Shown piece after piece: positions 9,401-55,912 of a DNA stretch of 64,000 nt. The stretch covers positions 372,001 to 436,000 of the forward strand of contig OZ004594.1 of NCBI GenBank assembly GCA_963924555.1. Direction: 5' to 3'. The first letter of the stretch is position 1, and each line of letters starts with the position of its first letter. A program made the position numbers and the translations under genes. This DNA is from Crambe crambe. Lineage: Eukaryota > Porifera > Demospongiae > Poecilosclerida > Crambeidae. The notes beneath the pieces were generated by a model. It worked only from the letters and a program-made list of their open reading frames with translations. It had not been told where the DNA came from and did not search any database.

Positions 9401-12400
9401 TGGGTGGAGTGCTGGTTGAAGGTGCAGTGGCTGGAGTCTGCTTCGACTTCCTCCTTACTCGAAGGGATCGGGTGATAAAGTTGGTCACAGCAGCTTTTGA
9501 GATACTGATTTTCCTGGTGCTTGTTGGCGTTTCTTGCTGTTGTGTGGATCCTGATACCTTTAAATGCGTCGGGGAGGAGAGGGACGTGCCTCCTTCTTCC
9601 TTACTCTGGTTGGATTTCTTTCCTCCCATTTTGATGTTCACTAGAGAAGAAGTGGATTTGGACTTTGAACTCTTGCTGGAGGCAATGCTGAGAGCACTGC
9701 CAAAGCTGGTCATACTGTTGTGGTGTTCAGGCTGGGAGAGGTTGAGGTCGTAGTCCATGGGGCACTCCCCCAAATGACTGCTCCGTCGAGGGGTCAGGGG
9801 GAAGGAGTTCGGTGGGAGGCTACTCTTGAAGAAGAACTTTGGTGAAGCCAATCCTTGAGCAGAGCAGTCCAGAGCTATCTCCAGAGGCTTCTCCTCGGCC
9901 TCCAACTCCCTCTCCACTACAGAAATAAAATGATCTTTAAGTTTTAGCTATACACTTAGCTAGTAACTTCAGGATATCCAGCTCTGGGATTTTAAATATT
10001 TTTGTACTTACTCTGTCCTTGAACCAGAGAAATGGAGCTAGGTTGTGTGCCATCCACAGCATCCAGCTGATACTCGTGGGGCAGAAATCTTGTGATCAGT
10101 TCAGGCAGCAGATCGGACACAGTCGAACTGCTGTTAACATGGAGATTTTCAGAGAATCTGTCTAATCCGTCAGAGTAGTGGAACTTGAGAAGGCCTGAAT
10201 ATATGTCTTCCTGCAGGAATGCAATAAGGGATGCATTAATTACTCTGTTGACAGACTTAGAAGACTTTGGAGAGTAATTTTTAAAATGTTATGATGTTTC
10301 CTAGTGTTATCAATGTTATGCGCAGCATTGAACTCCTTAATAGTCTTAATTTATAGAATAGATAATTCAAGGTAATTCTTCCCAGCAAATGAATTCTTTG
10401 AACTTTAGTCATTAATCTCTGAACTAACAGCTATACACAAAAGAGTGTCACTCCTACATGCCTGGGGGCATGCAGGGTTATAATAACAGTATACATGCTT
10501 TATGGAGTCAAAGCATTTCGAAAAGAGGAGGGGGAAGGAGAGAGGGAGGGGGAAAGAGAGAGGGAAGGGGAAAGAGAGAGGGAAGGGGGAAGAGAGAGGG
10601 AAGGAGGGAGAAAGAGAGAGCTAGGAGAAAGGGGGAAGGAGGGAGGGTGGGGAGAGGGGGAAGGAGGGAGGGGAGAGGGGGAAGGAGGGAGGGGAGAGAG
10701 GGGGCAGGGAGAGGGGGAAGGAGGGAGGGGAGAGGGGGAAGGAGGGAGGGCGGGGAGAGAGCAGGGAGAGGGGGAAGGAGGGAGGGGAGAGGGGGGAAGG
10801 AGGGAGGGGAGAGGGGGAAGGAGGGAGGGGAGAGGGGGGAAGGAGGGAGGGGAGAGGGGGGAAGGAGGGAGAGCGGGGAGAGAGGGAAGGAGGGCAGGGA
10901 GAGGGGGGAAGGAGGGAGGGGAGAGGGGGAAGGAGGGAGGGGAGAGGGGAGAAGGAGGGAGGGGAGAGGGGAGAAGGAGGGAGGGGGGAAGGAGGGGGGA
11001 AGTCTTGTGGCTACTTTCTTGGCAAACTCTAGTCCATGTACGAGGCAAATTGATCTCACTTGGCAAGAACAGTTTACTGGACAAGCAACAGCTGCCCATG
11101 CAGGACTCTCATAAGGAATGCTTAAGCCGGAATATGCGTGCCTACAACCAACACCACTAGCCTTAAGAGGACAGACAACATGATGTGCATCCCATGAAAG
11201 GAGAGGAATAAACTGACTTCAACGCTACACCCTTTGAGAGAACACAGTGCAAATTTATAAGGACAATGTGATTTTTTTTTCCTGAGCAAATAACTATTTT
11301 CAAAGCAGCAAATAGTGGCTGATGCAAGTGAAACCACTCTCTCTCTACGGTGGAACCTCCACACCTCCACTACGAAAGAGGACTAACCTCCCAACAAAGG
11401 ACAATTAAGGGCCTGGAAGAGTACACAATTATACCACCAGCCAGGTTAATGGAGCCATGGCCCCCACCAGCCAGGCTAATGGAGCCATTGCTCACACTAT
11501 ACCACCAGCCAGGTTAATGGAGCCATGGCCACAAGTGAAGACACCTTGGCAAACACAATAGGGAAGGATATCACCTTCCTTTGATGAACTTTGTAAGCCT
11601 TGAGTGTATGGAGGTCATTAAGCAATAGTTAGTGACGATCAGGATTTTGTCATCCCACTTTTTGATCAGCACATGTGTACAGTGGAACCTCATCTGGCTA
11701 TAACGGTCACCCTTAAGACTGAGAGATGACCTCTAATATGAGGCTCAACTATCAATACTGTCAGAATTTCAGATGGTAATGATTCTAGTTAATTCCATAC
11801 CTTTCAACTATAGGAAGTATAGGGAAGACACTCCCACTAGGGAAGACACTCCCACCATTATGTCAATGTCTATTGCTGTAGAGGCCACAATGGCTACTGT
11901 GTCTATTATAAGAGGTAATTATTGTTGATGCAGCTAGCAAAAATGAAATTCAAAGCAGGTAATGCATACAACTGTGCAACCAGCCCGTGAATAACACATA
12001 AAACAAGGTTAGCTATTATATATGGACCATGCACGCCATATTACATCATACCATGGGGCCATCATGTCATACTTAACATATACCATGGGGTCATTATGTC
12101 ATTATGAAAGCTATATCATTCTTTTTCTCCATACCATATCTTGGTCCATCTCCACCCCCAAGATGGTGTCATTATCCACCAATTCTCCTCCTTCCCTGGA
12201 CATTATTGGCCTCAAGTCCTCAATGCTCATGTCATACGGATGATAAGACTTCAGAGAGAACCTGCCAGCTGTTCCACTACCATACTCCCCAAACACGAGT
12301 TCACCTTTCCTTGGTAGACAGAGTGGAATATTTCCCATGGCTATTCCATCAAGGATGTAAAAGTCCAATACTCTCACTCACTAGATAGCAGAATTCTGAG

Positions 12401-33213: not shown

Positions 33214-33332
33214 CCTAATCCACTTATATTCATAGCTACCATAATATTTTTAAGACGAATTGATAATTTTGGGCGTGACTTAGAAATAGTATTAGATAAT
33301 TTACAGCTAAGCTGTCAGCTAGGTGAGCTAAG
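33214..33332. promoter_or_regulatory. Divergent promoter NPRL3 / SPRY-RING A
   Basis: 119 bp separate the two start codons. The sequence is AT-rich and contains no motif that I can name. Confidence 0.4.
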
Positions 33333-35375
33333 ATGGGATCTGTTCTGTCTAGAACCGAGTTCCACGATGATTCCAGTAAAAGATCTACTAAAGCGCAGCT
33401 AAAAGAAAGAAATAAGCAAGTCTACTTTGGTGAGAATACAGTCAATCAAGTGGCATGTTTATTGGGGCCTCTGTCAAGAGAGAAGAGCCATGAGACTTAT
33501 CACTTAAACCTCAAGCTTGAATGTTCGTTCATGAGTGAGCCTGTAGTTGGACTGGCTGTGAGAGAGTTCAATGCCACCAACCCAGTGGCTATTAAAGGTA
33601 ATCCTAACTTCTATCTGTGGTATATCACTAAAGGCAAGGTTGAATTCAGAGGTAAAGTTGAAGAACTTGGGTCCTCGATACCGACAGCAAAAAGTGGAGA
33701 TGAGCTTCTCATAAGCTTTGTGATGGCAACTAACAGAGTTACACTGGCTGTAAGTAACTGTGAAAGACAGTCATCTCATGAAATAACCCTTCCCAATCTT
33801 CCTAACAAGTTATATCCCTTTGTTGGGGAAGTGGATGGAGGGGGTTCTCCTACATCCTTTTTGATCATTGAAAGCTCTACAACAGAACACAATAATAATG
33901 CTTTGATAGACATGACCTACAAAATCATGTTCACCATTACCTACGGAGTTATTAATGCCGAACATAACCTCAAGCGAGTCACGAGAAAGTCAGCCCAACA
34001 GGGAAACGGGTGTGCCCTCCTTCCTATAAAAATGTCCACAGGTATACATCACTGGAGTTTCATAGTGCGCTGTGACTTTGGTGCCTCCTTGTGCTTGGGG
34101 TTAGCGAGATATCCCTTTAAACTCTCAGAGGAATACATTAAAGATCACCTGAAACACATCTACAGACATCCAGGTCTGATCTTATACAGGTCATATAGAG
34201 GATTACTATACAGAGATGGCAAACAGCAAGATCAGTCTCTGGACGCACTTGGGTGGCAGCATGGCAGTTCGGTTGTGATGGAGTTCATCTTCGATGCCAG
34301 CAAAGGCACGCTTGAAGTGATCAGAAATGGAAGAAGCATGGGAACCGCTTTTGAAAATTTAAATGGAATCTTCCAACCTGTCGTTTGTTACTATGCAGCA
34401 TATGAAAAAGAAGTCGAATTTAAGCAATATTTGACGTCAGAATCGTCACTTGATTTCGTAACATCTCCTCCCAGTAGTTTAGAATCTAATACAACTTCAT
34501 CATCCAGTTCTGCTGTCAATGCTGACACTATATGTTTCGATGACTACCACATACGTGGAAAAATTCAACTCACAGCTGACAAGAAAACTGTTTACAGAGA
34601 TAAAGTGCAGTCAGGGAACTCTTTCTGCTTCCTGAATATAAGGTGTGAAAAGCTCGGGCAGTACAGATTCTCTTTCGTCGTAGAGCACGATCAAGGTGCT
34701 TCCACCTGCCTGGGGGTCACTCAAGCAACTACTCCAGCTAAAGTCAAGTTGAATGATGTAGGTAATGTTTACACATCTGAAAGCCTCTACTTGTATCGGT
34801 CCTTCCAAGGGATGCTCTATGTACAAGGTCGAGAGCAGTCCTCCAAACTGGAAGAATTTTGGATGAGTGGCTCACTCGTCGAGATGGAGGTTAACGTCGC
34901 CAGCAATGAAAGCTCCGTGAGATTCAAAGTGAACGCAATGGATCAGGGCATTGCCTTTTCTGGACTCCAACCTCCTCTGACACCTCTGGTCGCCTTCTAT
35001 GCCGGGATGGAGAAGCGGGTGACCATCCTACACTATGAATTTGTTCCAGTTACACAGGTCATTTCTCCAGTCGAAAAATCTCTCCAACAGCTTCAACTGA
35101 AAACAAACGAATTAGGTCCAAACGATATTCAAACTACTCTGACTCATGCTTCGAAACCTTTGCTGCCTATTCTAGCGTCTTCAGCAGACGCAGCTGCATA
35201 TTATCCCTCCTGCATGTCATGTCAGAACCAGAATGACATTATTGCGTTGCCATGTAAACACTCAACTGTCTGTTCTAAGCACTTATCAGTGGGACTTAAT
35301 GCCCCCACACGACGGTGCATGGTATGTGATCAAAAAATAGCACAAACTTGGAATATTCTGTTGACCAAGAGCTAG
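33333..35375 (+). CDS. Single-exon protein with three SPRY-like domains and a C-terminal RING (copy A)
   Basis: An uninterrupted 680-codon frame. The N-terminus MGSVLS fits the N-myristoylation rule (Gly2, small residue at 6). Three consecutive segments of about 150 residues look like SPRY/NHR-type beta-sandwiches: about 45-190, 195-370 (IHHWSFIVRCDFGASLCLGLARYP, then LYRSYRGLLYRDGK) and 400-570 (YRFSFVVEHDQGASTCLGVTQ, then LYRSFQGMLYVQG). The second and third clearly repeat each other. The end is a RING finger of C3HCHC2 spacing (CMSCQ, LPCKHSTVCSKH, RRCMVC), like the membrane-linked MGRN1/IAP type. It is therefore probably a membrane-tethered E3 ubiquitin ligase with SPRY-like recognition domains. 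The family name is not recognised. A broken paralogue lies at 48021-49330. Confidence 0.75.
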   Translation: MGSVLSRTEFHDDSSKRSTKAQLKERNKQVYFGENTVNQVACLLGPLSREKSHETYHLNLKLECSFMSEPVVGLAVREFNATNPVAIKGNPNFYLWYITKGKVEFRGKVEELGSSIPTAKSGDELLISFVMATNRVTLAVSNCERQSSHEITLPNLPNKLYPFVGEVDGGGSPTSFLIIESSTTEHNNNALIDMTYKIMFTITYGVINAEHNLKRVTRKSAQQGNGCALLPIKMSTGIHHWSFIVRCDFGASLCLGLARYPFKLSEEYIKDHLKHIYRHPGLILYRSYRGLLYRDGKQQDQSLDALGWQHGSSVVMEFIFDASKGTLEVIRNGRSMGTAFENLNGIFQPVVCYYAAYEKEVEFKQYLTSESSLDFVTSPPSSLESNTTSSSSSAVNADTICFDDYHIRGKIQLTADKKTVYRDKVQSGNSFCFLNIRCEKLGQYRFSFVVEHDQGASTCLGVTQATTPAKVKLNDVGNVYTSESLYLYRSFQGMLYVQGREQSSKLEEFWMSGSLVEMEVNVASNESSVRFKVNAMDQGIAFSGLQPPLTPLVAFYAGMEKRVTILHYEFVPVTQVISPVEKSLQQLQLKTNELGPNDIQTTLTHASKPLLPILASSADAAAYYPSCMSCQNQNDIIALPCKHSTVCSKHLSVGLNAPTRRCMVCDQKIAQTWNILLTKS

Positions 35376-39584: not shown

Positions 39585-42500
39585 ATGGACCAGGAAAGAC
39601 TTAAAAAGGTAAGAAACTATCAGATGGTGCTATTTTTTAATGATATATGCCTGGTTACAAGTCCTTATGTGTGTGGACTCAGATATATCTCTAAGTACAT
39701 GTACAATCAAAAAGGCCGCCTAGGCGGAACAGACTGCAGCTGGCAAGTCATTGTAGCAGCTGCTGATTTTAGTCCAGACGCTATCTAGGCTAGCTAGCTG
39801 TGCATTTGTTTAGGTGTAGAAAATTCTTTAGGTTTGCCATTGTGTAGTTTAATAGCTACTTGAGTGTGCTAGAATAGTTGCTGTGACTGGTTTGTTTCCT
39901 CACAGATAAAGGAACATGAGGAATGGATAGAGGAATTATTGGAGGTAAGTTGTTTGTGGAAGTAGTTGCTTGTGTTGGTCCAGTGCCTCCAGCAAGACCC
40001 TCCAGTCACTGCAAGCACCTCAGGCCCATAGCAGGAGGCACATAATACATAGCAATAGCCTGTTAAGATTGAGGGGTGCTCGTTTGCAGGGAGGAGTTGC
40101 TTGTTGGAATGCTGGACTACTCTACCTTAAAGCAGTTACCTCCAGTATTATTTGCCCCACTGTTTTGAGGGTGCTCCTCATCTGGAATTTCCACAGGAAG
40201 GCCAAACCCCCTGTTCAATTTTATGACCCAAATGCTGACTCAGCATAATTCCTGTGCACCTCTGCCGGGGGAAGTGGGTGGGGTCTTGAGACCTGTGTAC
40301 CCCATGGCACTATTGAGCATAACATGTAACGAAGGTTCTCCATGTTTGGAGTCTGCAGCTCAAATGCCTTGCATGCTAGACCCCTGCTCAATTTTCGACA
40401 GACCATAACACCCCCATGCGGGTCTGCCGAGGGAAATGGGCGGGGCCTGGTGACTCATGACCCCCATGACTTTCTGGAGCATACTTCACTCTACACGTTC
40501 TCCAAGTTTGGAGGCCGTAGCTCACATGCTGTGCGTGTGGTGATTTTTTTTGTGGTGCATGATGGTTGTCTTTGTGTGTTGGTTGTATTTGTCTCACCTT
40601 CTCTCTCTCACTCCTCACAGTTGAAGGCAAGGGTTCAGATGATGATGGAGTACTGTGAACGGGTGAGTGATGAGTGTAGCAGTGGTGTGATGAGGGCGTG
40701 GCATGTGGCCCAGTCCATACCTAGTGTGTGTTCCATGTGTGCAGTGTATTGCTGAATGCAAGGAGGAGTTGGACCAGCCCTCCCTGTCTGTGGAGAGGAG
40801 GAAGAAGCTGGAGGAGGATGTGCAGGAGTATGAGGGATACATCCAGAGCCATAAAGAAGCCATCCATAAGTATGAAGAAGAAATAAAGGAGAGAGAAAAT
40901 GCCCTCAGGCAACTGAATTGTAAGTATCAAGATGTATAAGTACTTGGCACTAATTAGATGATGTAGCAGTACATGGTGTAATGTAAATAATACCCCCAAG
41001 CTAAAATAAGTGTGTGGTATATGTAGCGCATGTAATTAGTAGTTGTAGAAATTAATTAGTGGTTAATTAAAAGTAGGTGAAAATAATTAAAGTTTGAAAG
41101 GCCATAACTTTTGAATGGAAAGTGCTATAGTCTTCATTTAAACACCATTCTGCTCAGAAAAATTCTCTCTTCTCTCTGTACAAGTGATATCTTTCTCTAA
41201 GACTTGTGCTATCTAGATGATTAATTTTATTACTTTCTTTAAAGGAATTTTATAGAATATAAAGTGACTTTCTGTTGTTTGTAGTGGATATATGAAGTAA
41301 ATAGTATATATTCACAAAGTCCTTCTTCCCTATTCTGTAGCTTCTTCCCCTGGACCCCCCAGACCTCCTGAATCCCCTGGACCTCCCTCTGAGCCTGTCC
41401 TTCCAGCTGAAGGACCCACCAACTCTCCTACTGAATCTGGTGAGTTGACTCCTAGTAACCAAATGCAGCAACAAGTCACTCACAGACCAGAGTGGACTTA
41501 CTGTATCCCTTGTGGACATCAAACAACTGCTTGTTTAATTACAACCCTATCAAATTAAATTCCAAAGTAAATCCTTTGACACCTGTAGGGTAGTGATATA
41601 GAGACATTGGTGGGTGCCATTAGTGGCTTTCCCATATTCACCCTTCAGAGATCTCATCATAGTATTCTCTCTTCATGCTATAGGTGGAGAGAAAGAGGCA
41701 TTAGCAACATCAATGGATGACAAAGGTAGATATAACAATCAATATCTTTCACCCCCTCCCCCCTTAAACCCGACCATGTCTCCACTCCCCCTTAACCCAA
41801 AGTGATTTGTCATAATTACCCAGGAGTGACGTCATCAAGTCCTCTGGACGAAGCCACAAGAATAAAGTTGGTGAGTAGAATACATGTGCTGGAGTCTTGT
41901 AGGCATGAGACTAAAGAGTCCAATAATAGCATGTTTCCTATCATGTGCAGCCAATGTCAGATTTCCAGTCTTTTATATTCTGATCATATTTTCATAGCAT
42001 GACAATGCAATGGAGAAGGGGCATGTTGATACGAGTATTATTAAGGCGGTAATTGTGGGGGCAGCTGGTGCTGGCAAGTCCTCTTTCGTATCTCTCCTCT
42101 TTGAAATCATTCTTCCACATTTCCGAATCAGTACGGGAGTCATCGAGAAAGCCAAGAGGGTCATGACCACCTGTCTGAGGTTAGGCATGACTGAAGCACT
42201 AAATAATCAGGTCTGGGAGGTCGTTGGAGCTGAGGAACTTATAACTATTCTCGCAGACGCCATCAATGCGAGCATCGACTTTGATTCAACCTCTTCTGCT
42301 ATTTTTGTACAGCAGAAATCGAATAATGGAGCCTCGAAAGAGCATGGAAGTTTTGATTCGGCCAGTACCTCAACGTTTACCGACTATACAGTGGCCAGAA
42401 CGACTGTGATCAAGCTGATTGGTCGATCCAAGAAAGGTAGATTGCTGAAAATGACTTGGATCTACATCATAGACAGTGGAGGGCAGCCTCAGTTCCATGA

Positions 42501-44469
42501 GCTTCTTACAGCTTTCCTTCGAAGTGCTACACTCGGTATCTTTGTTTTTAGGCTGTGCGATCAGCTTGATGATAAGCCGCAAATTGAATATTACGGAGAA
42601 GATGGCGAGCCTCTTGGTGAATCGTATCCTTTCCCCATGAGCCACAAGGAAATATTCCAGCACTGTGTCCAGACCATCTATTCCCTCCCCTCCACTGCCA
42701 CTGCAGAGAAGGGGCAGGAGGCACCTCGGCCTAAAATCTTAGTAGTTGGGACGCATCGCGATAAAGAAGAAGGTTGTCCTGAAAGTCGTGAGCAAAAGGA
42801 TCGAGTGCTTAAAGGTATTTTGCACCCAGAATCAGTGTCCAAATCAAGATCAGTTAGTGATGTCATCTACTATGGGAAGGGTTGCATATTCCCCCTCAAT
42901 GCTCGATCACCAAATGCAGAAGACAAGGAAGTTGTTGGTGACATTCGATGTGAAGTGGAAGACCTTGCACCTCCACACACACCGATCCCCCTCCAATATT
43001 ATGCCCTCGAGCTGGAAATCGAAAAGCAATTGAAAGATAATCAGCAACAGGTCATAAGCGTTCACGATTGTCTAAATATTGCGCGTTCTCTCCATTTCAC
43101 AGAAACCGCAGCCAGAGCAGCTCTCCTTCATCTCGACAGTCTCAACCTCATTCAGTACTTCCCTTCGAGTGCTGAGGAAGTCATCTTTTGTGATCCCAAT
43201 GTCCTCCTCAATAAGGTCAATGAGCTGATCAAGAAGAGCTACAGGTTGAGAGGTGGTTCAGAGCCTCGAGCCGATACTGGCGGAAAGTGGATCAACTTCC
43301 ATCAGCGTGGTGAGGTGACCTTGGATATCCTTGAAAAGTTTTCTTATGGTTATGTGCCAGGTCTGTACGACCACCACACTGTGGCCAAGATCTTTGAAGA
43401 TCTCTTGATTCTTACCCCACTTGACTTTGATCTCAACCTGTACTTCATGCCTGCTTTGCTTGATATCAAGAACGTCAAAGATATTCAGCGACCAACCAAA
43501 ACGTGCCTCGTTATAGCTTTCCCCTCGGGGTATGCCCCCTTGGGACTCTTTTCTTCTTCTGTTGCTTTTCTTACTTCGACCAAAAACAAGTGGCCTTCTT
43601 CTTGGAAATTTTTCCTTAAAAGTGGTCAGCTCTTCAGGAATGCGATCACCTTTGAAGCAGGTTTGGCTCGTGTCACTTATTTAGATCTTTCTACTCACTT
43701 CGAGATCCATGTGGAGACCCGTGTTAAACGCAAGGTTGCTAGCATGCGCCAAATGGTGAAGACTGGCGTCTGCAAAGCTCTCGATGAATCTATCAGAGTG
43801 CGCAACATCAGCAATGCTTCCTACACTCTTGCTTTTCCATGTCCCTGTGACTCGGAGGTCGGAAATGGGGCCGAGGATTTTCATTTAGCAGAGATTTATG
43901 ATGAAAGTCTACCGGGAGAAAAGTTCTGGAAGTGTAAGAAGAATCCAGGTGAATGTGGTGAGCTTGAACAACACCATGTGGAGTGGCTGAGCACACAAGA
44001 AAAGGAAGCTGAAGCTAAGAAAAATGATGGTAGGTAATAATAATGCTGATATAGTATATAGTGATAACCTGTCCTCTTCACCCCCCCCCCCCCCCCCCCC
44101 CAACACACACACACACACACACACACTGTAGACACTCAGTGTTCTCTTGGAATGGCTGACCATTTTGAAGTGACTCAGTTGCTTAAAGATCTACACAAGG
44201 AGGACATTATAAGGTTGGGGACAGCTCTAGGATTGTCCTTCGTCAAACTGACGAAAATGGGAATGTTTCCTGATGAAATGGTTGCTGCCTGGATAAGAGG
44301 AGACGACAACGTTAACAAGACAAGTGGTCCTCCCAGCTGGGAGAGTCTAGCCACAGCTCTCGATAAAACTCATCACACAGATATAGCCTCCAAGGCCAGG
44401 AAGGTGAGTATGGAAGGAGAGGTGGAGAGACACTACTTAATATTGTTATTCCAATTACAGAAGAGTTGA
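39585..44469 (+). CDS. ROCO (Roc-COR) GTPase with N-terminal coiled coil and C-terminal death domain, copy A
   Basis: Ten exons give 926 residues in frame: 39585-39608, 39906-39944, 40621-40662, 40745-40919, 41341-41439, 41684-41725, 41824-41870, 41998-44029, 44132-44403 and 44461-44469. Residues 1-95 form a charged coiled coil, followed by a proline-rich hinge (about 95-130). The large exon 8 carries the Roc-type G domain: P-loop GAAGAGKSS at 177, DSGGQPQFHELL (switch II) at 315 and GTHRDKE (G4) at 407. A COR-like region follows, with LYFMPALLDI near 637. Exon 9 encodes a death-fold domain (LGTALGLSFVKL, then PPSWESLATALDK). Such proteins relate to LRRK/DAPK1/MFHAS1-type ROCO signalling proteins and are likely to signal by oligomerisation through death domains. 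The last exon is unlike that of copy B. Confidence 0.85.
44081..44126. repeat. Poly-C and (CA)n tract before the death-domain exon
   Basis: About 21 C followed by about 12 CA units, ending five bases before the TAG acceptor of ROCO A exon 9. It acts as an unusual polypyrimidine tract. Confidence 0.9.
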
Positions 44470-44598
44470 CTGTCAACATTTCTCCTTCATTTCTCTAACA
44501 CTCAGGTGAGCTTCAAATAGGAATAGCATGCATAGGTGTAAGATTAGAGGGGGGGGGGGGGATTTAAGACCTGGACAGGCTATACTTTGTGTCCTCTT

Positions 44599-46008
44599 TT
44601 AAAGGGTAGGTTGAATGAAAAAAAAAATTTTTTTTAAATATCACCAAAACCCTTTCAAGGTAGTCTATAAACTAAATATATTACAATTTTAATTCACACT
44701 ACAGCATAACACCCACAAAAAATCATTCTTTTCAGCTAGAAATCGACATTAGATATTTACTTCCTGTTGTGGGCGGGGCTTAACGATGACGCAGACGTAG
44801 GGATTCATTTGGCCACATGCTATAAATTATGGCAACAGATGGTAGTCTAGGTGACCATAGTTCTGGAGAAAGCACTTTAGACTCAAGCTCTTGACTAGGA
44901 AGTAGTTCAGGTGACAGCTCCCTAGCACTTTCATATGCATCTTCTGAGTTTGAAGGTGCTGATGAGCCAGAAGGAGTGCATCCATTTCTCTATGAGCCTG
45001 TTACCAGTAGTGATGATGATGAAGGGAGTGATTCAAGTGATGGTGACTCACCTAGACTTCTCAATACAGATTGGTAAGTAAACAGCAGTTCAAGTGTATT
45101 GATTTTTTTTGTTTCTCGATGTTGAAGGTGCACTTAGCTAATAATGCCTACAGCTATAGAATGTCTCTGCTGTAGTGAAATTACAGAAATGATGAATAAA
45201 AGATCAACAGAAGAAGTAGGGTGTATTACTCTTCACCCGGGGTTTCAAAGTGTTTGCTTGAATACATGGGTTCTCCAAACCGCATGTTATAGCTATAGAC
45301 AGCAGTATGGTGAAAATGCTATTGAAGGAGCTATTCAAGCAAACACTTTGAAACCCCGGGTGAAGAGTAATACACCCTACTTCTTCTGTTGATCTTTTAT
45401 TCATCATTTCTGTAATTTCACTACAGCAGAGACATTCTATAGCTGTAGGTATTATCATACAGTGACCACAAGTGCACCTTCAACATTGAGAAACAAAAAA
45501 AAATCTAACTATTCAATACACTTGAACTGTTGTTTACTTACCAATCTGTATTGAGAAGTCTAGGTGAGTCACCATCACTTGAATCACTCCTATCACTACT
45601 GGTAACAGGCTCATAGAGAAATGGATGCACTCCTTCTGGCTCATCAGCACCTTCAAACTCAGAAGATGCATATGAAAGTGCTAGGGAGCTGTCACCTGAA
45701 CTACTTCCTAGTCAAGAGCTTGATTCTAAAGTGCTTTCTCCAGAACTATGGTCACCTAGACTACCATCTGTTGCCATAATTTTATAGCATGTGGCCAAAT
45801 GAATCCCTACATCTGCGTCATCGTTAAGCCCCGCCCACAACAGGAAGTAAATGTCAATGTCGATTTCTAGCTGAAAAGAATGATTTTTTGTGGGTGTTAT
45901 GCTGTAGTGTGAATTAAAATTATAATATATTTAGTTTATAGACTACCTTGAAAGGGTTTTGGTGATATTAAAAAAAAAATTTTTTTTTCATTCAACCTAC
46001 CCCTTTAA
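44599..46008. mobile_element. 1.4 kb imperfect palindrome carrying P2X7-like coding sequence, TTAA at both ends
   Basis: A left arm from 44599 to about 45264 is the inverted complement of about 45333-46008, with a loop of about 70 bp. Both outer ends read TTAAAGGG(G)TAGGTTGAATG inward, so a TTAA target duplication is possible. Each arm contains the same coding start: an acidic Ser/Asp-rich exon beginning at 44829 (mirror at about 45777) with a PFLYEPV motif, and a zinc-binding-like segment, PTAIECLCCSEI then CITLHPGFQSVCLN. The left arm continues into the loop as WVLQTACYSYRQQYG. The latter matches the cysteine-rich cytoplasmic domain of P2X7-like proteins that are widespread in invertebrate genomes. 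Both arms have an in-frame TGA in the first exon, so neither is an intact gene. Small indels differ between arms. Confidence 0.75.
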
Positions 46009-48020
46009 GGGACATGTGTAGTCAGATAGTGTGACCTCCTTCCCTTGAGTTCTGCAAGAGACTTCCTTGGGATTATTTACTATGATTATTTATGTGATTC
46101 TGCAGATCCAGCTCTTTTCATTGTGCTTTCCTTGGAACAGTTTCAGTAATTGATTTTTATGCACTCTGTCAATTCTGATTCGGTAATGATCGTTAATTTA
46201 TAAACATTATATTACGCGTAATGACGTGACGCGTAATTTCGAAGACCCTTACCAACTTTCAACCAAAACAACTATTGATGAGGACCTTCTCTACAGGTTC
46301 CTCTCTAACAGCAGCAGCGGCCCCTTAGTGTGTGTGTGGTGGGCAGCTGGATTCTACACTGCTCATCAAGGTAACTATGTATGTGTACGTGTATTAAACT
46401 ATACAGTAGTCCATTGCAATTGTCCAGACACCCAAGTGGATTTTGGATCAACTTTGGTTTGGTGTGCATGACAGAAGGCTAGAAACTCCAGGTGAAGTGA
46501 GTTTTCTTCCATTCATTTTACATTATATAATGCACCTCCCAAGCACCTCCAAGCATAACTATCTTAATGTGGACTCTTGAAGTTACAGTTAATCCAGTAG
46601 CAAGTTATGTCTTCCTTGTCCCTCTGTGTGGACCAAATAATTATCCTATTTGAACTATAACAATGCCCTATCAAAACGACTTACAATAGGGTCTGCAACG
46701 TGAAAAATCGATATCCTAGTTTTGCATAACTTGCACCTGTTTTTAAGTAGAGGGGGTTGAAGCTTAAACAGCCACACCTTCAAATCCTGGGTTTGTGATT
46801 GCTTAACAGAGAAATTCACTCGCGATGTACATTTTTGCGGTGTCAGCAAAATTGAGGTCAAGGGTCAAATTTAGAATCAAATTTATTTTTGGTCAAATTT
46901 AGAATCAAATTTTGGTGGCTCTAAGTGTTGTGCTCACCTTGACTGCCAAGTTGCTTCAAATTGAGCTGCTATAACTCCTGAAACAGAGCCTTGGACCCCT
47001 TATTCGCAAGAAGATGAGTTCTTGGAGAGAACAATCAGCTGTGCTAGATGGAGGTCCATGAGAGGGCAATCCCTCAATATTCGGTTGTTTGGGGCTTGGT
47101 TTTCAAATGTGTGATTAGTGTAGTTAAGTCATATTTGTATTCAGTAATAACAATCGATTCTTCCACATCAAATAGCCCATTTACTGCTTCAATTTCCATA
47201 TAATCAATGATCTAAGACTGGATACAGATATTTCAAGCCTTTCAATAGTGTATGATGCATATTGTTCATTGACTTTCACTCTTGAGTAACTAGAGTTTTT
47301 ATCAACATAAAAAACCGTTCCATCCCCACAATTCAGCTTCTGATTCATTTTCCATCCTATAATTTGGAATGAGGGACTCTAGCTCCTAAAGGAGACTTTT
47401 AAAGGGTAATTTTTGTTTGTTTATTTGTTTGTTTGTTTATTTGTTTGTTTATTTGTTAATTTCAGAGTTTGAAATCATTTACAATGCTACAATGTTTTAC
47501 CTGAGAAATAAGCACCTAATATACAATACAACTCCTTATCTTCGATCACGAATCCGATGTAAATGTGCATGCATGCATGCACGGAATTCAATGCCAGTTC
47601 TGGTATGGGGATGGAATCTGTAAATTATACTGGGTCCAATGATAGGACCCAATAATTATGGGGTCTGATATATTATTTTGGACCCAGTATACCTGGGCAG
47701 ATATGCTATAATAATTATTGGACCCAGTATACCGGGCCAGAAATATATTGGACCCAGTATTAATAATATTATTGGACCCAGTATACAAGGCCTTAAGAAA
47801 CTATCAGATGGTGTAATATATGTCTGTGTAGTCTACATGCCCTATTAAACTTAGCAGCTTTGTGTAGCCTAGACTCTGAACTCTGCTAGTCAAAAAGGCC
47901 GGGCCGCCTAGCTAGGCGGAAAAGCTGCAGCTGGCTGTCATTATACCAGCTGCTGATTTTAGTCCAGACACTATCTAGGCTAGCTGTACATTTGTTTAGG
48001 TGTAGAATATTCTTTAGGTT
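46009..48020. other. Intergenic sequence between units A and B
   Basis: No complete gene is seen. It holds an unassigned open stretch at 46226-46471, a GTTT/ATTT-rich tract at 47410-47462, and five or six copies of TTGGACCCAGTAT (some inverted) at 47625-47795. From about 47792 to 48020 there is a third copy of ROCO intron 1 (compare 39610-39838 and 50983-51243), which runs directly into the truncated SPRY/RING copy. Confidence 0.6.
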
Positions 48021-49330
48021 TGGGAAATGGGTGTGCCCTCCTTCCTATAAAAATGTCCACATGCAGGTGTACATCACTGGAGTTTCATAGTGCGCTGTGA
48101 CTTCGGTGCCTCCTTGTGCTTGGGGTTAGCGAGATATCCCTTCAAACTCTCAGAGGAATACATTAAAGATCACCTGAAACACATATACAGACATCCAGGT
48201 CTAATCTTATACAGGTCATATAGAGGATTGCTATACAGAGATGGCAAACAGCAAGATCAGTCTCTGGACACACTTGGGTGGCAGCATGGCACCTCGGTTG
48301 TGATGGAGTTCATCTTCGATGCCAGCAAAGGCACGCTTGAAGTGATCAGAAATGGAAGAAGCATGGGAACTGCTTTTGAAATTTTAACTGGAATCTTCCA
48401 ACCTGTCGTTTGCTACTATGCAGCATATGAAAAAGAAGTCAATATTTGACGTCAGAATCGTCACTTGATTTCGTAACATCTCCTCCCAGTAGTTTAGAAT
48501 CAAATACAACTTCATCATCCAGTTCTGCTGTCGATCCCGACACAATATGTTTCGATGACTATCACATATGTGGAAAAATTCAACTCGCGGCTGACAAAAA
48601 ACCGTTTACAGATAAAGTGCAGTCGGGGAACTCTTTCTGCTTCCTGAATGTAAGGTGTGAAAAGCTTGGGCAGTACAGGTTCTCCTATCAAGGTGCTTCC
48701 ACCTGCCTGGGGGTCACTCAAGCAACTACTCCAGCTAAAGTCAAGTTGAATGATCTAGGTAATGTTTACACATCTGAAAGCCTCTACTTGTATCGGTCCT
48801 TCCAAGGGATGCTCTATGTACAAGGTCGAGAGCAACCCTCCAAACTGGAAGAATTTTGGATGAGTGGCTCACTCGTTGAGATGGAGGTTAACGTCGCCAG
48901 CAATGAAAGCTCTGTGAGATTCAAAGTTAACGCAATGGATCAAGGCATTGCCTTTTCTGGACTCCAACCTCCTCTGACACCTCTGGTCGCCTTCTATGCC
49001 GGGATGGAGAAGCGGGTGACTATCCTACACTATGAATTTGTTCCAGTTACACAGGTCATTTCTCCAGTCGAAAAATCTCTCCAACAGCTTCAACTGAAAA
49101 CAAACGACTTAGGTCCAAACGATATTCAAACTACTCTGACACATGCTTCAAAGCCCTTGCTGCCTATTCTAGCGTCTTCAGCAGATGCAGCTGCATATTA
49201 CTCCTCCTGTATGTCATGTCAGAACCAGAATGACATTATTGCGTTACCATGTAAACACTCAACTGTTTGTTCTAAACACTTATCAGTGGGACTTAATGCC
49301 CCCACACTACGGTGCATGGTATGAATAGCA
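48021..49330 (+). pseudogene. Truncated, frameshifted SPRY-RING copy B
   Basis: About 95% identical to the last two-thirds of copy A (from about codon 223). The first 670 bp are missing, replaced by ROCO intron-1 sequence. Relative to A it has a 4 bp insertion near 48062, a 10 bp deletion near 48440 that brings TGA into frame, an in-frame 15 bp deletion near 48688 (loses five residues of the third SPRY-like domain), and a 9 bp deletion at 49322 that stops the frame right after CMV and removes the last RING cysteine. It is annotated as a relic. A transcript starting at the new AG at 48066 is conceivable but would still lack a complete RING. Confidence 0.85.
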
Positions 49331-49681
49331 CAAATTTGGAATATTCTGTTGACCAAGAGCTAGCAATGATAGATATCACTTATATATTTATTTCTTCTAG
49401 TGATCCTTGCAGGTTATTATAAATATTACAATCAGTCTGATTTTTGTTGTTATTGTTGTTGTTGTTATTGTTGTTTTTGTTTTTGTTTTTTGTAATGATA
49501 TTAAGTGGTTGACCTATAGCATTACAGTGGAACATCTGATAAAGGATACTCCAAATGAGGACAACCTCTCAATTCAATAAAGGACAAGCAATCTGAAGTG
49601 ACTACCATTATTTATACACTCTTCAGTGTTGGTGTTAGATCACTTTCATGGGGCCCATTTTTCTTTCATGTGGTTAAAACA

Positions 49682-50109
49682 CAGAGTAGTGGCTTAATAT
49701 TGTGATGTTACCTGAATACTTGGTAACTTGATTAAAAAAATCAAAGTAACCAAAGGTAACTGGGTAACAGGAAGGGAAAATCATACTACCACAGTCTTGA
49801 AAGCGTGGTAACCTATGGAATCAATGGTAACCGAAGGTAACTGTAGGTAACTGGGTAACAGGAGGGGAAAAGTATCTTAAAAACGTGGTAACCTATGGAA
49901 TCAATGATAACTGGAGGTAACCGTATGTTTTCTCCGTCCTGTTATCCAGTTACCTTCGTTACCTTTGGTTACCTCAGGTTACCATTGGTTCCATTATCCT
50001 GTTTTATAGTGTCATGCTTTTCCCCAAAGTATTCAGGTAACATCACAATCAATCATAAATGATCCCCCATAACCCCCCCCCCCCTCCCCCCCATATCTTG
50101 CCATATCTC
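49682..50109. mobile_element. 428 bp non-autonomous insertion with 8 bp target duplication
   Basis: Unit A shows the empty site (TTAAAACA occurs once near 35696). In B, TTAAAACA flanks the insert on both sides (49674-49681 and 50110-50117). The insert contains an internal inverted repeat (49700-49722 against about 50025-50047) and many GGTAACC-type copies. An 8 bp duplication and a CAGAG start would fit a hAT-type MITE, although the right end is not a clear inverse of the left. Confidence 0.65.
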
Positions 50110-50313
50110 TTAAAACAATGTATTTTAATAGCTACAAGAATATCAAAATTCGCACTGCTCTGATCAGTTTCACTGGGGAGAACCCTGCCATTGTGTGCAC
50201 ACACCAGTTTAATATTGTACTTCTAATGTATCTTCACGTTAAGTCAGTATGAATCTCTTTTTTCTTCCATCAGTGTAGATATGTTCTGATCTCTTTGCTA
50301 TATAAAACCCACT

Positions 50314-50502
50314 TTGAACAAGACTCAATTGCATGGGCAGTTGGGGAAGAGTTCAAGACTTGTAAAGCAGTTTCAAGCAGAAGATGGGAATTTCCAATTC
50401 CAAGGAGAATGGCCTGCAGGAATTGGCCTTGCTTGTGATGACTGTGGAGGGATCTTTACTGTGCCCATGGACATGAGAAGAAAAGACGTACAAGGTTTAA
50501 AA
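50314..50502 (+). pseudogene. NHL-repeat-like coding remnant
   Basis: The stretch reads RLVKQFQAEDGNFQF, then GIGLACDDCGGIFTVPMD, the spacing of one NHL propeller repeat as in TRIM-NHL proteins. The counterpart in unit A (about 35960-36160) is interrupted. There is no start, splice partner or second repeat, so it is treated as a relic. The assignment is tentative. Confidence 0.35.
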
Positions 50503-50957
50503 CAAGAGAATTTCAAACATAAGGTAACTGGTGTGGAGTATGTCAGTCATTAATCTGGCATAGCCAGCCCGAGCGCTGAATGATCTTCAATGTCTCGGCA
50601 TGGTTAGTTGAACTCCCAGATCAACTCTCATGAAGACTCAGAGGGGTATAGCTACATATGAACAGCTTGCAAGACAAAGCATCCTCTGATATTTTCCTGT
50701 ATCCCATGGCCATGCAGTGTATAACCAGGTCCCCCTGAGATGCTCACTGCCAGTTGATTCAGAATGGGACCTAAGCTTGACCTTGCAGAAGGGAGATACC
50801 TAACATCTGCTGTGCTACCCCTCAACCCCGCCCTCGACTCAATGGGACATTGCCATTATACGCCCATGTATTATGCGCCACGCCCTTGATTTCCTCCTTG
50901 CAAAGACGTCACAATGTGCAATCAAGAGCGCAAAACATCTGCTGCCTGAAAAACAAC

Positions 50958-53900
50958 ATGGACCGAAAAAGACTTCAAAAGGTAAGAAACTATCAGATGG
51001 TGCCCATATTTTATAATATATGTCTGTGTAGTCTACATGATTAAACTTAGCTTGTCTAGCCTAGACCTCTGCTAGAGCTAACCGGTATTGATGCTTAAAG
51101 CTAGCATCAATCAAAAAGGCCGGGCCGCCTAGCTAGGCGGAAAAACTGCAGCTGGCTGTCATTATAGCAGCTGCTGATTTTAGTCCAGACACTATCAAGG
51201 CTAGCTGTGCATTTGTTTAGGTGTAGAATATTCTTTAGGTTTGAGTAGAGCTATGCCATTGTGTAGTTAGCTACTTGAGTGTGCTAGAATAGTTGCTGTG
51301 ACTGGTTTGTTTCCTCACAGATAAAGGAACATGAGGAAAGGATAAAGTGGTTATTGGAGGTAAGTTGTTTGTGGAAGTAGCTGCTTGTGTTGGTCCAGTG
51401 CCTCCAGCAAGACCCTCCAGTCACTGCAAGCACCTTAGGCCCATAGCAGGAGGCACATAATACATAGCAACAGCCTGTTAAGATTGAGGGGTGCTCGTTT
51501 GCAGGGAGGAGTTGCTTGTTGGAATGCTGGACTACTCTACCTTAAAGCAGTTACCTCCAGTATTATTTGCCCCACTGTTTTGAGGGTGCTCCTCATCTGG
51601 AATTTCCACAGGAAGGCCAAACCCCCTGTTCAATTTTATGACCAAAATGCTGACTCAGCATAAATCCCTGTGCACCTCTGTCGGGGGAAGTGGGTGGGGT
51701 CTTGAGACTTGTTTACCCCATGGCACTATTGAGCATAACATGTAACGAAGGTTCTCCATGTTTGGAGTCTGCAGCTCAAATGTCTTGCATGCTAGACCCC
51801 TGCTCAATTTTCGACAGACCATAACACCCCCATGCGGGTCTGCCGAGGGAAATGGGCGGGGCCTGGTGACTCATGACCCCCATGACCTTCTGGAGCATAC
51901 TTCACTCTACACGTTCTCCAAGTTTGGAGGCCGTAGCTCACGTGCTGTGCGTGTGGTGATTTTTTTTTGTGGTGCATGATGGCTGTCTTTGTGTGTTGGT
52001 TGTATGGTTGTCTCACCTTCTCTCTCTCACTCCTCACAGTGGAAGGCAGGGAGTCAGGGGTATATAGAGGACTGGGAACAGGTGAGTGATGAGTGTAGCA
52101 GTGGTGTGATGAGGGCGTGGCATGTGGCCCAGTCCATACCTAGTGTGTATTCCATGTGTGCAGAGGATTGCTAGATGCAAGGAGGAGTTGGACCAGCCCT
52201 CCCTGTCTGTGGAGAGGAGGAAGGAGCTGGAGGAGGAGGTGCAGAGGTATGAGGGATACATCCAGAGCCATAAAGAAACCATCCATAAGTTTGAAGAAGA
52301 AATAAAGGAGAGAGAAAATGCCCTCAGGCAACTGAATTGTAAGTATCAAGATGTATAAGTACTTGGCACTAATTAGATGATGTAGCAGTACATGGTGTAA
52401 TGTAAATAATACCCCCAAGCTAAAATAAGTGTGTTCGATATGTAGCGCATGTAATTAGTAGTTGTAGAAATTAATTAGTGGTTAATTAAAAGTAGGTGAA
52501 AATAATTAAAGTTTGAAAGGCCATAACTTTTGAATGGAAAGTGCTATAGTCTTCATTTCAGCACCATTCTGCTCAGAAAAATTCTCTCTTCTCTCTGTAC
52601 AAGTGATATCTTTCTCTAAGACTTGTGGTATCTAGATGATTAATTTTATTACTTTCTTTAAAGGAATTTTATAGAATATAAAGTGACTTTCTGTTGTTTG
52701 TAGTGGATATATGAAGTAAATAGTGTATATTCACAAAGTCCTTCTTCCCTATTCTGTAGCTTCTCCCCCTGGACCTCCCAGACCTCCTGAATCCCCTGGA
52801 CCTCCCTCTGAGCCTGTCCTTCCAGCTGAAGGACCCACCAACTCTCCTACTGAATCTGGTGAGCTGACTCCTAGTAACCAAATGCAGCAACAAGTCACTC
52901 ACAGACCAGAGTGGACTTGCTGTATCCCTTGTGGACATCAAACAACTGCTTGCTTAATTACAACCCTATCAAATTAAATTCCAAAGTAAATCCTTGGACA
53001 CCTGCAGGATAGTGATATAGAGACATTGGTGGGTGCCATTAGTGGCTTTCCCATATTCACCCTTCAGAGATCTCATCATAGTATTCTCTCTTCATGCTAT
53101 AGGTGGAGAGAAAGAGGCATTAGCAACATCAATGGATGACAAAGGTAGATATAACAATCAATATCTTTCACCCCCTAAACCCGACCGTGTCTCCACTCCC
53201 CCTTAATCCAAAGTAATTTGTCATAATTACCCAGGAGTGACGTCATCAAGTCCTCTGGACGAAGCCACAAGAATAAAGTTGGTGAGTAGAATACATGTGC
53301 TGGAGTCTTGTAGGCATGAGACTAAAGAGTCCAATAATAGCATATTTCCTATCATGTGCAGCCAATGTCAGATTTCCAGTCTTTTATATTCTGATCATAT
53401 TTTCATAGCATGACAATGCAATGGAGAAGGGGCATGTTGATACGAGTATTATTAAGGCGGTAATTGTTGGGGCAGCTGGTGCTGGCAAGTCCTCTTTCGC
53501 ATCTCTCCTCTTCGACATCATCCTTCCTCACTTCCGAATCAGTACGGGAGTCATCGAGAAAGCCAAGAGGGTCATGACCACCTGTCTGAGGTTAGGCATG
53601 ACTGAAGCACTAAACAATCAGGTCTGGGAAGTCGTTGGAGCTGAGGAACTTATAACTATTCTTGCAGATGCCATCAATGCGAGCATAGACTTTGATTCGA
53701 CTTCTTCTGCTATTTTTGTACAGCATAAATCAAATAATGGAGCCTCGAAAGAGCATGGAAGTTTTGAGTTCGCCAGTAGCTCAACGTTTACCGACTATAC
53801 AGTGGCCAGAACGACTGTGATCAAGCTGATTGGTCGATCCAAGAAAGGTAGATTACTGAAAATGACGTGGATCTACATCATAGACAGTGGAGGGCAGCCT

Positions 53901-55912
53901 CAGTTCCACGAGCTTCTTACGGCTTTCCTTCGAAATGCTACACTCGGTATCTTTGTTTTTAGGCTGTGCGATCAGCTTGATGATAAACCGCAGATCGAAT
54001 ATTACGGAGAAGATGGAAAGCCTCTTGGTGAATCGTATCCTTTCCCCATGAGCCACAAGGAAATATTCCAGCACTGTGTCCAGACCATCCATTCTCTCCC
54101 CTCCACTGCCACTGCAGAGAAGGGGCAGGAGGCACCTCGGCCTAAAATCTTAGTAGTTGGGACGCATCGTGATAAAGAAGGAGATTGTCCCGAAAGTCGT
54201 GAGCGAAAGGATCAAGTGCTTAGAGGTATTTTGCACCCAGAATCAGAGTCCGACTCAAGACCAGTTAGTGATGTCATCTACTATGGGAAGGGTTGCATAT
54301 TCCCCCTCAATGCTCGATCACCAAATGCAGAAGACAAGAAAGTTGTTGGTGACATTCGATGTGAAGTGGAACACCTTGCACCTCCACATACACCGATCCC
54401 ACTCCAATATTATGCCCTCGAGCTGGAAATTGAAAAGCAATTGAAAGATAATCAGCAACAGGTCATAAGTATTGACGATTGTCTAAATATTGCTCGTTCT
54501 CTCCATTTCACGGAAAAAGCAGGCAGAGCAGCTCTTCTTCATCTCAATAGTCTCAACCTCATTCAGTACTTCCCTTCAAGTGCTGAGAAAGTCATCTTCT
54601 GTGATCCCAATGTCCTCCTCAATAAGGTCAATGAGCTGATCAAGAAGAGCTACAGGTTGAGAGGTGGTTCAGAGCCTCGAGCCGATACTGGTGGAAAGTG
54701 GATCAACTTCCATCAGCGTGGTGAGGTGACCTTGGATATCCTTAAAAAGTTTTCTTGTGGTTATGTGCCAGGTCTGTACGACCACCACACTGTGGCCAAG
54801 ATCTTTAAAGATCTCTTGATTCTTACCCCACTTGACCTTGATCTCAACCTGTACTTCATGCCCGCTTTGCTTGATATCAAGAACGTCAAAGATATTCAGC
54901 GACCAACCAAAACGTTCCTCGTTATAGCTTTCCCCTCGGGGTATGCCCCCTTGGGACTCTTTTCTTCTTCTGTTGCTTTTCTTACTTCAACAAAAAACGA
55001 GTGGCCTTCTCCTTGGAAGTTTTTCCTTAAAAGTGGTCAGCTCTTCAGGAATGCGATCACCTTTGAAGCAGGCTTGGCTCGTGTCACTTATTTAGATCTT
55101 TCTACTCACTTCGAGATCCATGTGGAGACCCGTGTTAAACGCAAGGTTGCTAGCATGCGCCAAGAGGTGAAGACCGGTGTGTGCAAAGCTCTCGATGAAT
55201 CTATCAGAGTGCGCAACATCAGCAATGCTTCCTACACTCTTGCTTTTCCATGTCCCTGTGACTCAGAGGTCGGAAATGGGGCCGAGGATTTTCATTTGGC
55301 AGAGATTGATGATGAAAGTGTACCAGGAGAAAGATTCTGGAAGTGTAAGAAGAATCCAGGTGAATGTGATGATCTTGAACAACACCATGTGGAGTGGTTG
55401 GGCACACAAGAAAAGGAAGGTAATGAGTATACTCATACTGCATATGACCAATATTTACAATGTATTGAAACTCTAAAGATCATCACAATTCAACTGCAGC
55501 AATGAGTCCCTCAACCAGCAAAGTTCAGTCAACGAGTTCTCCACTCAAACCTTGTCAAGAAATTGATGCATCTCTGAGTGAGTGTCTCAGTCTTATGAGG
55601 TAATAACTATTTTCATGTATTGAGTTGTTTGGTACAGGTCGTCTCAATGTGAGACGAGCACTGAAAGGTGTGACCACTGAATGGGATGACCTGGCAGAGG
55701 TTCTTGGACTACCGTGTCCAGAGATCGATACCATAAGGGCAAACAATCCTAATGACGTGAAGCAGTGTCTGAAAAAAGTGATTGAAGCATGGCTCATGAA
55801 GAAAGGGGATGAACCATCATGGACCAACCTCTGCACAGCCCTCAAAGATCCTCTAGTTGATCGTAAAGACATTGCATCAAGTATTGAAAAGCAGTTCATA
55901 CATTCACGCTAA
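50958..55912 (+). CDS. ROCO (Roc-COR) GTPase with coiled coil and a different death domain, copy B
   Basis: Nine exons encode 917 residues: 50958-50981, 51321-51359, 52040-52081, 52164-52338, 52760-52858, 53103-53144, 53235-53281, 53409-55419 and 55638-55912. Exon structure, phases and most sequence match copy A through exon 8, including P-loop GAAGAGKSS, DSGGQPQF and GTHRDKE. The final exon is unrelated at nucleotide level to copy A exon 9 but is also a death-fold domain (WDDLAEVLGLPCPEIDTI, PSWTNLCTALKD). Homology to A stops within a few bases of the exon 8 donor. Reading through the donor would give an alternative end at 55505. Exons 1-4 differ from A only by amino-acid-changing substitutions. 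Confidence 0.87.

Follow-up and report, generated by a model that had tools for sequence, protein, structure and literature searches.

The window analysed here, the whole 64,000-nucleotide stretch of the sponge Crambe crambe that spans positions 372,001 to 436,000 of contig OZ004594.1 (assembly GCA_963924555.1), is part of a contig that we call C17, in a 143-Mb genome whose genes contain introns. On its forward strand lie two tandem genes, copy A and copy B, in a duplicated 4.6 kb stretch of 93.7% identity. They belong to a family of at least 77 copies in which one 42-base pair (bp) exon, exon 3, is hypervariable at seven of its codons between nearly uniform intron flanks. The parts of the two genes, in window positions, are as follows.

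39585..39608, forward strand: copy A exon 1, start codon and N-terminal helix; the spliced frame of exons 1–8 is open
39906..39944, forward strand: copy A exon 2, 39 bp, phase 0-0; codons 15, 17, 18 and 21 variable among C17 copies
40544..40620, forward strand: copy A upstream cassette flank, the final 77 bp of intron 2; copy A lacks 2 bases here
40621..40662, forward strand: copy A exon 3, 42 bp, hypervariable; protein positions 22–35, of which 22, 25, 26, 28, 29, 32 and 33 vary
40663..40744, forward strand: copy A intron 3, its initial 59 bp being the uniform cassette flank
40745..40919, forward strand: copy A exon 4, end of helix 1, DQPSLS loop and helix 2
41341..41439, forward strand: copy A exon 5, proline-rich linker; open spliced frame
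41684..41725, forward strand: copy A exon 6, linker
41824..41870, forward strand: copy A exon 7, linker
41998..44034, forward strand: copy A exon 8, Roc-COR GTPase; 3′ splice end provisional
44152..44403, forward strand: copy A terminal exon, death-like by eye alone, with matches to 0 Pfam families; splice joining inferred
50958..50981, forward strand: copy B exon 1
51321..51359, forward strand: copy B exon 2
51963..52039, forward strand: copy B upstream cassette flank
52040..52081, forward strand: copy B exon 3, hypervariable
52082..52163, forward strand: copy B intron 3, cassette flank
52164..52338, forward strand: copy B exon 4
52760..52858, forward strand: copy B exon 5, placed by alignment to copy A
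53103..53144, forward strand: copy B exon 6, by alignment
53235..53281, forward strand: copy B exon 7, by alignment
53409..55420, forward strand: copy B exon 8, Roc-COR GTPase; 3′ end approximate
55640..55912, forward strand: copy B terminal exon, Death domain PF00531, ending in TAA; splice joining inferred

An earlier note on this DNA had counted 22 differing codons out of 93 between exons 1–4 of the two copies, every one of them altering the residue. Our recount matches exactly (3, 3, 9 and 7 codons per exon; 32 bases; zero synonymous codon pairs), all eight exon coordinates are correct, and GT/AG is present at the internal splice sites of both copies. Exon 3 alone differs at 13/42 bases. 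Near-identity of the introns holds for introns 2–7, which together differ at 30/1640 bases or 1.8% (intron 2, 12/676; intron 3, 1/82; intron 4, 7/421; introns 5–7, 10/461), but not for intron 1, where 47/287 aligned bases differ in a partly poor alignment. The proportion of replacement differences (pN) across exons 1–4 is 0.130 (30/230.7 sites) versus a divergence of 0.018 in introns 2–7; the corresponding Nei-Gojobori silent proportion (pS) of 0.041 stems from path averaging alone. At the level of introns 2–7 about one silent change would be expected in the 48 silent sites of exons 1–4, so that finding zero is unsurprising. The signal between A and B is an excess of replacements, rather than a lack of silent changes. 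Exon 8 does contain the many silent changes reported for it (46 silent and 39 replacement codons out of 669; pS 0.109, pN 0.027), but its pS is six times the divergence of the adjoining introns; the gene is thus a mosaic of parts with different histories, and exon 8 is unusable as a clock.

A DNA search with the segment from exon 2 to intron 7 retrieved 15 copies on C17 and many on the contigs designated C8, C18 and C15; searching with the exon-3 cassette alone added C16, with up to 40 candidates scored in each search. At least 77 cassettes could be read, 15 on C17, 32 on C18, 18 on C8, 2 on C15 and 10 on C16, all of these numbers being lower bounds. Exon 3 measures 42 bp in 74 of the 77; the exon-3 counts exclude the remaining three, L024 (36 bp), L085 (60 bp) and L034 (donor lost), and a locus consisting of a 5′ piece only (L075) was excluded before counting. 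A 78th cassette, L089 (C17:1042300-1044300), lacks the exon-4 acceptor and is probably a pseudogene with diverged flanks. The 60-bp exon 3 of L085 (C16:703850-704700) repeats the scaffold internally and in frame, which adds 18 bp and gives two units with different variable codons; in L037 on C8, the end of exon 3 and adjoining intron 3 sequence are duplicated in tandem. Matches to a 55-bp piece of the upstream flank (73, of which 67 exact) and to a 40-bp piece of the downstream flank (76, of which 63 exact) all fall on these five contigs; the upstream flank of copy A, with its 2-base deletion, is not among the 73. A reversed control pattern of the flanks had zero matches in the genome, and no cassette that could be a candidate allele was found on a further contig of this one assembly at up to 3 mismatches. 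An exact 23-base flank piece was absent from viral and prokaryotic collections, from which records of this or near genomes may be omitted. Protein searches found a relative in Ephydatia muelleri at 31%, the closest relatives being at 88–93%.

Aligned, the exon-3 copies share the consensus X-Lys-Ala-X-X-Gln-X-X-Ile-Glu-X-X-Glu-Gln. Codons 1, 4, 5, 7, 8, 11 and 12 each encode between 9 and 16 different residues, codons 2, 3, 6, 9, 13 and 14 are near-fixed, and codon 10 is Glu or Lys with one exception. Third bases, counted in the 67 copies outside C16, vary almost solely along with the residue: codon 4 has C or G as its last base in every copy, never A or T; codon 11 has C there in 66/67; and a third-base A is kept in codons 3, 9 and 13 in 67/67, 65/67 and 67/67 copies. 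Across the 74 copies, 185 differing codon pairs are synonymous and 17,629 are not (1.0% synonymous), and no exon 3 bears a stop codon (0/74), where column shuffling leads one to expect about 24. Silent divergence in the near-fixed codons is 0.016 overall (0.000 in C17 and C16, 0.001 in C18, 0.038 in C8). Rather than normal silent variation, the paralogues thus exhibit the opposite in exon 3, with some silent variation in exon 4 (pN/pS 1.8 to 3.2 for modal-length exons; 15, 15, 28 and 8 copies), and they support the strong diversifying selection that had been proposed for the N-terminal helical module. Codon choice at the variable positions of the 74 copies is itself uneven. Leu is encoded by TTG 22 times, CTC 5 times and CTT twice, never by CTG; Arg is AGG in 61/65 cases and never CGG, though TGG, one transition away, is common. 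Decay of CpG may explain the missing CGG, an explanation that does not extend to the missing CTG.

The flanks stand against this variability. Over 136 sites (the 77 bp ahead of exon 3 and the 59 bp behind it), 21 vary at all and 1 has a minor allele at 5% or above, versus 33/42 and 21/42 sites, respectively, in exon 3 (indels uncounted). The uniform span is sharply bounded: sites where the contig groups are fixed or near-fixed for different bases occur on its upstream side (40534, 40543) and on its downstream side (40723, 40724, 40730); inside it, none of the 67 copies carries a group-distinguishing base. Diversity in exon 3 is 0.24–0.27 within contig groups and 0.25–0.27 between them (C16 excluded, here and from the correlation below), while the 75 bp upstream of exon 3 show 0.003–0.009 in every comparison and the rest of intron 2 shows 0.3–5% within and 8–41% between groups. 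Leaving out C16 and two gapped copies, 65 of the 67 copies form 2080 pairs; in 1084 of these the 134-bp flanks are identical and exon 3 nonetheless lies a median of 10/42 bases apart (flank divergence, 0.76 of 134).

Closely related pairs were compared part by part. One comparison, the source of the L027/L029 counts below, covered C8 pairs with less than 1.2% divergence in intron 2; its exon-3 counts for pairs with L024, misaligned by a 6-base deletion, were left unused. L012 and L020 are identical upstream (0/1493) and in exon 2 (0/39) and nearly so in intron 2 (1/679), and differ in exon 3 (12/42), exon 4 (14/175) and introns 4–7 (104/829), a pattern that one exchange near the end of intron 2 would explain. 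L016 and L018 differ at 0/1491 bases of exon 8, 3/677 of intron 2 and 4/884 of introns 4–7, with 64/1106 upstream, 10/39 in exon 2, 12/42 in exon 3 and 17/175 in exon 4. For L027 and L029, the counts are 13/1068 upstream, 6/50 in the exon-2 region, 0/613 in intron 2, 7/42 in exon 3, 16/175 in exon 4 and 19/1586 after exon 4; since these two copies differ in the exons on both sides of 613 identical bases, recombination would need two exchanges. Recombination between copies alone thus fits the L012/L020 mosaic and was rejected as a full account: it is frequent, yet insufficient by itself for a replacement-only pattern. The targeted exchange that the earlier note had offered beside selection may have occurred: exons are mosaic between copies, but a whole exon 3 is seldom shared, 71 of the 74 sequences being distinct. 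Old balanced lineages with homogenised introns are unlikely, as exon-3 silent sites are about as uniform as the introns, unless those sites are constrained. Exon-4 difference grows weakly with intron-2 divergence (Spearman 0.17, p 6e-5).

The variable residues fall on a helical pattern. In helix 1 and helix 2 of all four contig groups analysed (15, 13, 28 and 8 copies; exon 2 used in C17 only, helix 1 read from residue 22 onward in C8, C18 and C16), variability recurs with a period of 3.5–3.65 residues (permutation p from 0/5000 to 0.0032). Twenty positions reach at least 1.2 bits in C17: 15, 17, 18, 21, 22, 25, 26, 28, 29, 32, 33, 36 and 39 in the first stripe, and 60, 63, 67, 70, 71, 74 and 76 in the second, of which 60, 63, 67, 70, 71 and 74 are the stripe noted in exon 4 of copy A; positions 77 and 78 join them in C18 and C16, and 81 in C16. 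Conserved hydrophobic positions recur in all four groups (30, 37 and 44; 57, 61, 68, 75 and 82). Exon 4 is predicted to fold as a helix, the DQPSLS loop and a long helix, with a predicted local distance difference test score (pLDDT) of 97. Two exon-4 sequences depart from the rest, that of L079 (C16) by a poly-G insert and that of L056 (C18) by a frameshift; these are broken copies or sequencing errors.

Downstream of the hairpin, copy A exon 8 is modelled as a Roc-COR unit (pLDDT 83). A Foldseek search with this model returned LRRK (LRRK1, LRRK2) or Roco proteins in all of its top 17 rows (E values 2.1e-8 to 5.6e-16), and a profile search matched the exon to LRRK2 (E 8.7e-7). By this model, copy A exon 8 has the Roc GTPase followed by COR that characterises ROCO proteins. 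Among the best 66 of 516 candidates, a GTPase exon 88–100% identical to that of copy A accompanies 15/15 C17 cassettes, and 24 GTPase exons at 58–63% identity lie in the C18 cluster of 32 cassettes; two others, at C8:1028407-1030398 (92%) and C17:3697611-3699599 (89% to copy A exon 8), are far from any cassette found. The death-domain signalling end named in the earlier note is borne out by Pfam in copy B (PF00531, E 1.9e-9, 37.9 bits against a cut-off of 22.6) and not in copy A. One C8 copy read downstream has a P-loop-like open frame by eye, with COR-A (5.6e-7) and Death (0.0017) both under the cut-off. One C16 copy has a P-loop-like open frame, COR-A under the cut-off (1.5e-4) and an end that is death-like by eye only; neither copy has a Roc match in Pfam, nor has the C16 copy a Death match.

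Taken together, a model for this family emerges, to which we assign a probability of just under 0.6: a germline-encoded recognition repertoire, shaped by extreme diversifying selection while its scaffold is homogenised or constrained. From its N-terminus onward, the receptor made by each gene would comprise a helical hairpin (exons 1–4), a linker rich in proline, a GTPase switch of the Roc-COR type and an end with a death domain. With the core positions of the hairpin kept and some 20 codons varying in one stripe per helix, each copy would present a private binding face; on binding a ligand there, the receptor would switch its GTPase and draw in death-domain partners. Very strong diversifying selection, driven by an arms race or by an advantage of rare types, would retain ordinary mutations; the resulting diversity would spread by tandem duplication and by recombination among the copies, and gene conversion or functional constraint would hold introns and silent positions uniform. 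The pattern of residue-only change supports selection for new faces, for which a microbe, a virus or another individual may be the agent; the uniformity of the flanks calls for a further cause, either conversion between copies or constraint. The model takes its direct support from the copy number, the sequence pattern, the helical periodicity, the Roc-COR fold of copy A and the Death domain of copy B, and from these we infer ligand binding, signalling, a cellular location, a selective agent and a cause for the likeness of the flanks. The proteins may serve self/non-self recognition, as the earlier note had suggested; its interpretation as a whole is supported in part.

Several results weigh against this model. 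Column shuffling yields a synonymous fraction that is likewise low (279 synonymous versus 18,051 other pairs of 18,330, about 1.5%). The scarcity of synonymous pairs is therefore largely a consequence of the particular bases that vary, which cannot be said of the absence of stop codons. A plain Nei-Gojobori pN/pS for exon 3 is only 3.8 across all copies and pS reaches 0.138 in the variable codons, both because averaged paths book silent steps wherever codons differ at several bases. Replacement divergence in the seven variable codons (pN 0.54; 0.94 after Jukes-Cantor correction) exceeds the silent divergence of the remaining codons (0.016) about 60-fold and the divergence of the flanks about 170-fold, more than is usually expected of stepwise selection. 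Exon-3 residue difference is uncorrelated with intron-2 divergence (Spearman 0.017, p 0.65; 707 pairs from the same contig group with at least 300 aligned intron-2 columns). The variable stripe lies at 86–120 degrees from the conserved hydrophobic stripe, not opposite to it. On the GTPase side, Foldseek template modelling scores by query length are 0.33–0.51 with root mean square deviations of 5–11 Å for the Roco rows, and the Pfam matches of copy A exon 8 to Roc (5.3e-5) and COR-A (0.0062) are both under their cut-offs; the terminal exon of copy A has no Pfam match.

A competing explanation is a dedicated, position-directed process that rewrites particular codons of the cassette; the 136 bp of uniform flank would act as its recognition or copying signal, and selection would do no more than purge broken products. 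Sharply bounded flanks around saturated codons on five contigs would be expected of such a process, as would the finding that variable codons, where they differ, do so at two or three bases in 56% of cases, that 15/21 pairs of variable codons are unassociated at p 0.05, and that L027 and L029 differ at 5/7 variable codons with 0/594 counted differences in intron 2. The remaining 6/21 codon pairs are associated at p <0.05, however, where about one is expected, and no flank copies were found outside the clusters at up to 3 mismatches genome-wide. Third bases that change almost solely with the residue also argue against it, and three forms of mutation were rejected outright. Simulated blind hypermutation of exon 3 gives 14.7% synonymous pairs (range 9.4–19.0) and simulated full randomisation of the seven codons gives 4.8% (3.9–5.8), against the 1.0% observed, and adenine-type mutagenesis is contradicted by third-base A being kept in 199/201 instances in codons 3, 9 and 13. 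A codon-blind mutator is thus disfavoured, and a directed one is possible only if it spares silent and core positions. It would amount to an active system, operating in at least 77 copies on five contigs, that writes residues onto one face of a helix, and we regard both the process and such a system as unlikely.

Equally doubtful, in our estimate, is that the flanks are held uniform by strong constraint on a function of their own, such as signalling when the 42-bp, phase 0-0 exon 3 is to be included, and that exon-3 diversity is much older than its flanks suggest. A short symmetric exon with conserved flanks is a known mark of regulated exons. The copies with unusual flanks bear on this directly. 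L066 differs from its own group at 36/548 bases of intron 2 and at 1/131 in the flanks, and L089, without the exon-4 acceptor, has flanks that differ from copy B by 3–5%, with indels, where those of the 65 other copies (C15 and C16 excluded) average 0.3% from their group consensus; both favour constraint. Against it, the intron 2 of L089 is also 4–8.5% different from copy B, so that its flanks may simply be older, and L022 has a 20-bp deletion in the downstream flank. Judged by these outliers, conversion and constraint both appear compatible with the uniformity. The silent positions of exon 3, about as uniform as the introns, also speak against constraint on the flanks. A conserved RNA element was rejected as a candidate: an Rfam search gave no match and the predicted RNA fold is ordinary (z +1.3, with 187/200 shuffles as good).

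Less probable again is a role in pairing, in which the variable face sets which copies associate and so prevents cross-assembly of similar signalling proteins or of self/non-self alleles. The stripe runs along a coiled-coil-like hairpin and borders the hydrophobic stripe, a placement that permits pairing contacts; against this role, Trp, Tyr, Gly and charged residues abound at its positions, which is not typical of a packed core. An assembly or base-calling artefact, to which the few copies with frameshifts or odd inserts (L056, L079) might point, is highly improbable given that the same codons vary in-frame and stop-free in 74 copies on five contigs.

If the recognition model holds, the scaffold would, to our knowledge, be unlike those of the hypervariable receptor kinds that can be named. 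PRDM9 zinc-finger arrays also combine homogenised repeats with hypervariable contact codons, in DNA-binding fingers inside one gene. Bacterial diversity-generating retroelements confine variation to chosen codons of a fixed scaffold; the sponge exon resembles them in this, and here several third bases are fixed, but their adenine-specific signature is absent, third-base A being retained. No template copy for such a retroelement was found outside the clusters at up to 3 mismatches, a reverse transcriptase not having been searched for. Under the recognition model, the sponge copies likewise resemble an engineered helix library, with a conserved core and a varied stripe per helix.

The earlier note knew of no described system of this kind, which is too strong: evolution of a like kind is described for the LRR-ROCO exons of brown algae (PMC11378527) and for the NWD repeats of fungi (PMC1805685). 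These are the nearest precedents found, and neither is this family. In PMC11378527, which cites Zambounis 2012, the brown-algal leucine-rich repeats (LRRs) are described as lying in separate, shuffling exons under diversifying selection, in proposed immune receptors. Shared with the sponge genes are Roc-COR, short same-phase exons for each recognition unit and positive selection on the binding surface. The algal genes, as presented there, carry tandem 72-bp phase-2 LRR exons within a gene and vary on the concave LRR face, with LRR-ROC-COR as the sole architecture, whereas the sponge, in at least 77 copies, has a single phase-0 helical exon of 42 bp, with intron flanks that are uniform across contigs and, in copy B, a Death end. 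Exons 1–4 measure 24, 39, 42 and 175 bp, are entered in phase 0 and have a helical period, in place of tandem 72-bp phase-2 repeats, no search with an LRR model having been made. In Podospora NWD/HNWD genes, PMC1805685 describes about 70 near-identical units that are homogenised between genes, with four surface codons per unit positively selected. Homogenised units with few diversified codons recur here as a pattern, for which conversion is a possible cause; those units are WD-40 repeats in fungal NACHT genes, and here single exons with uniform introns belong to separate genes that have Roc-COR instead of NACHT and WD repeats. Snake-venom ASSET, or accelerated exon evolution (PMC2711939), involves changing surface segments amid introns more than 85% similar, by a mechanism that its authors call unknown; segments there switch to unrelated sequence, while here fixed codons change in a kept scaffold. 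A search of the open-licence literature found no description of this gene family, and the accessible parts of a sponge NLR survey (PMC12909245) and of a report on a Dictyostelium allorecognition hotspot (PMC12324515) do not describe it.

Other elements of the window lie around the two genes. Ahead of copy A, positions 33327-35375 hold a SPRY gene (E 1.7e-13) with a RING-like end under the Pfam cut-off, and ahead of copy B, positions 48022-49681 hold an incomplete duplicate of it, 90% identical over 1.7 kb. Just behind copy A, positions 44599-46008 form a large 1.4-kb fold-back element with a 91% match to its own reverse complement; positions 10423-11218 are a long G- and A-rich low-complexity repeat.

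If the model of a germline recognition repertoire is true, this sponge is an animal in whose inherited library at least 77 variants of a helix face are linked to a Roc-COR switch, and a rule for designing helical binders could be taken from nature. With so high a ratio of replacement to silent change, the choice between selection alone and directed mutation becomes directly testable. Should a directed process prove true, the family would be the animal equivalent of a helix library that has been randomised, its output being of the cell-death type.

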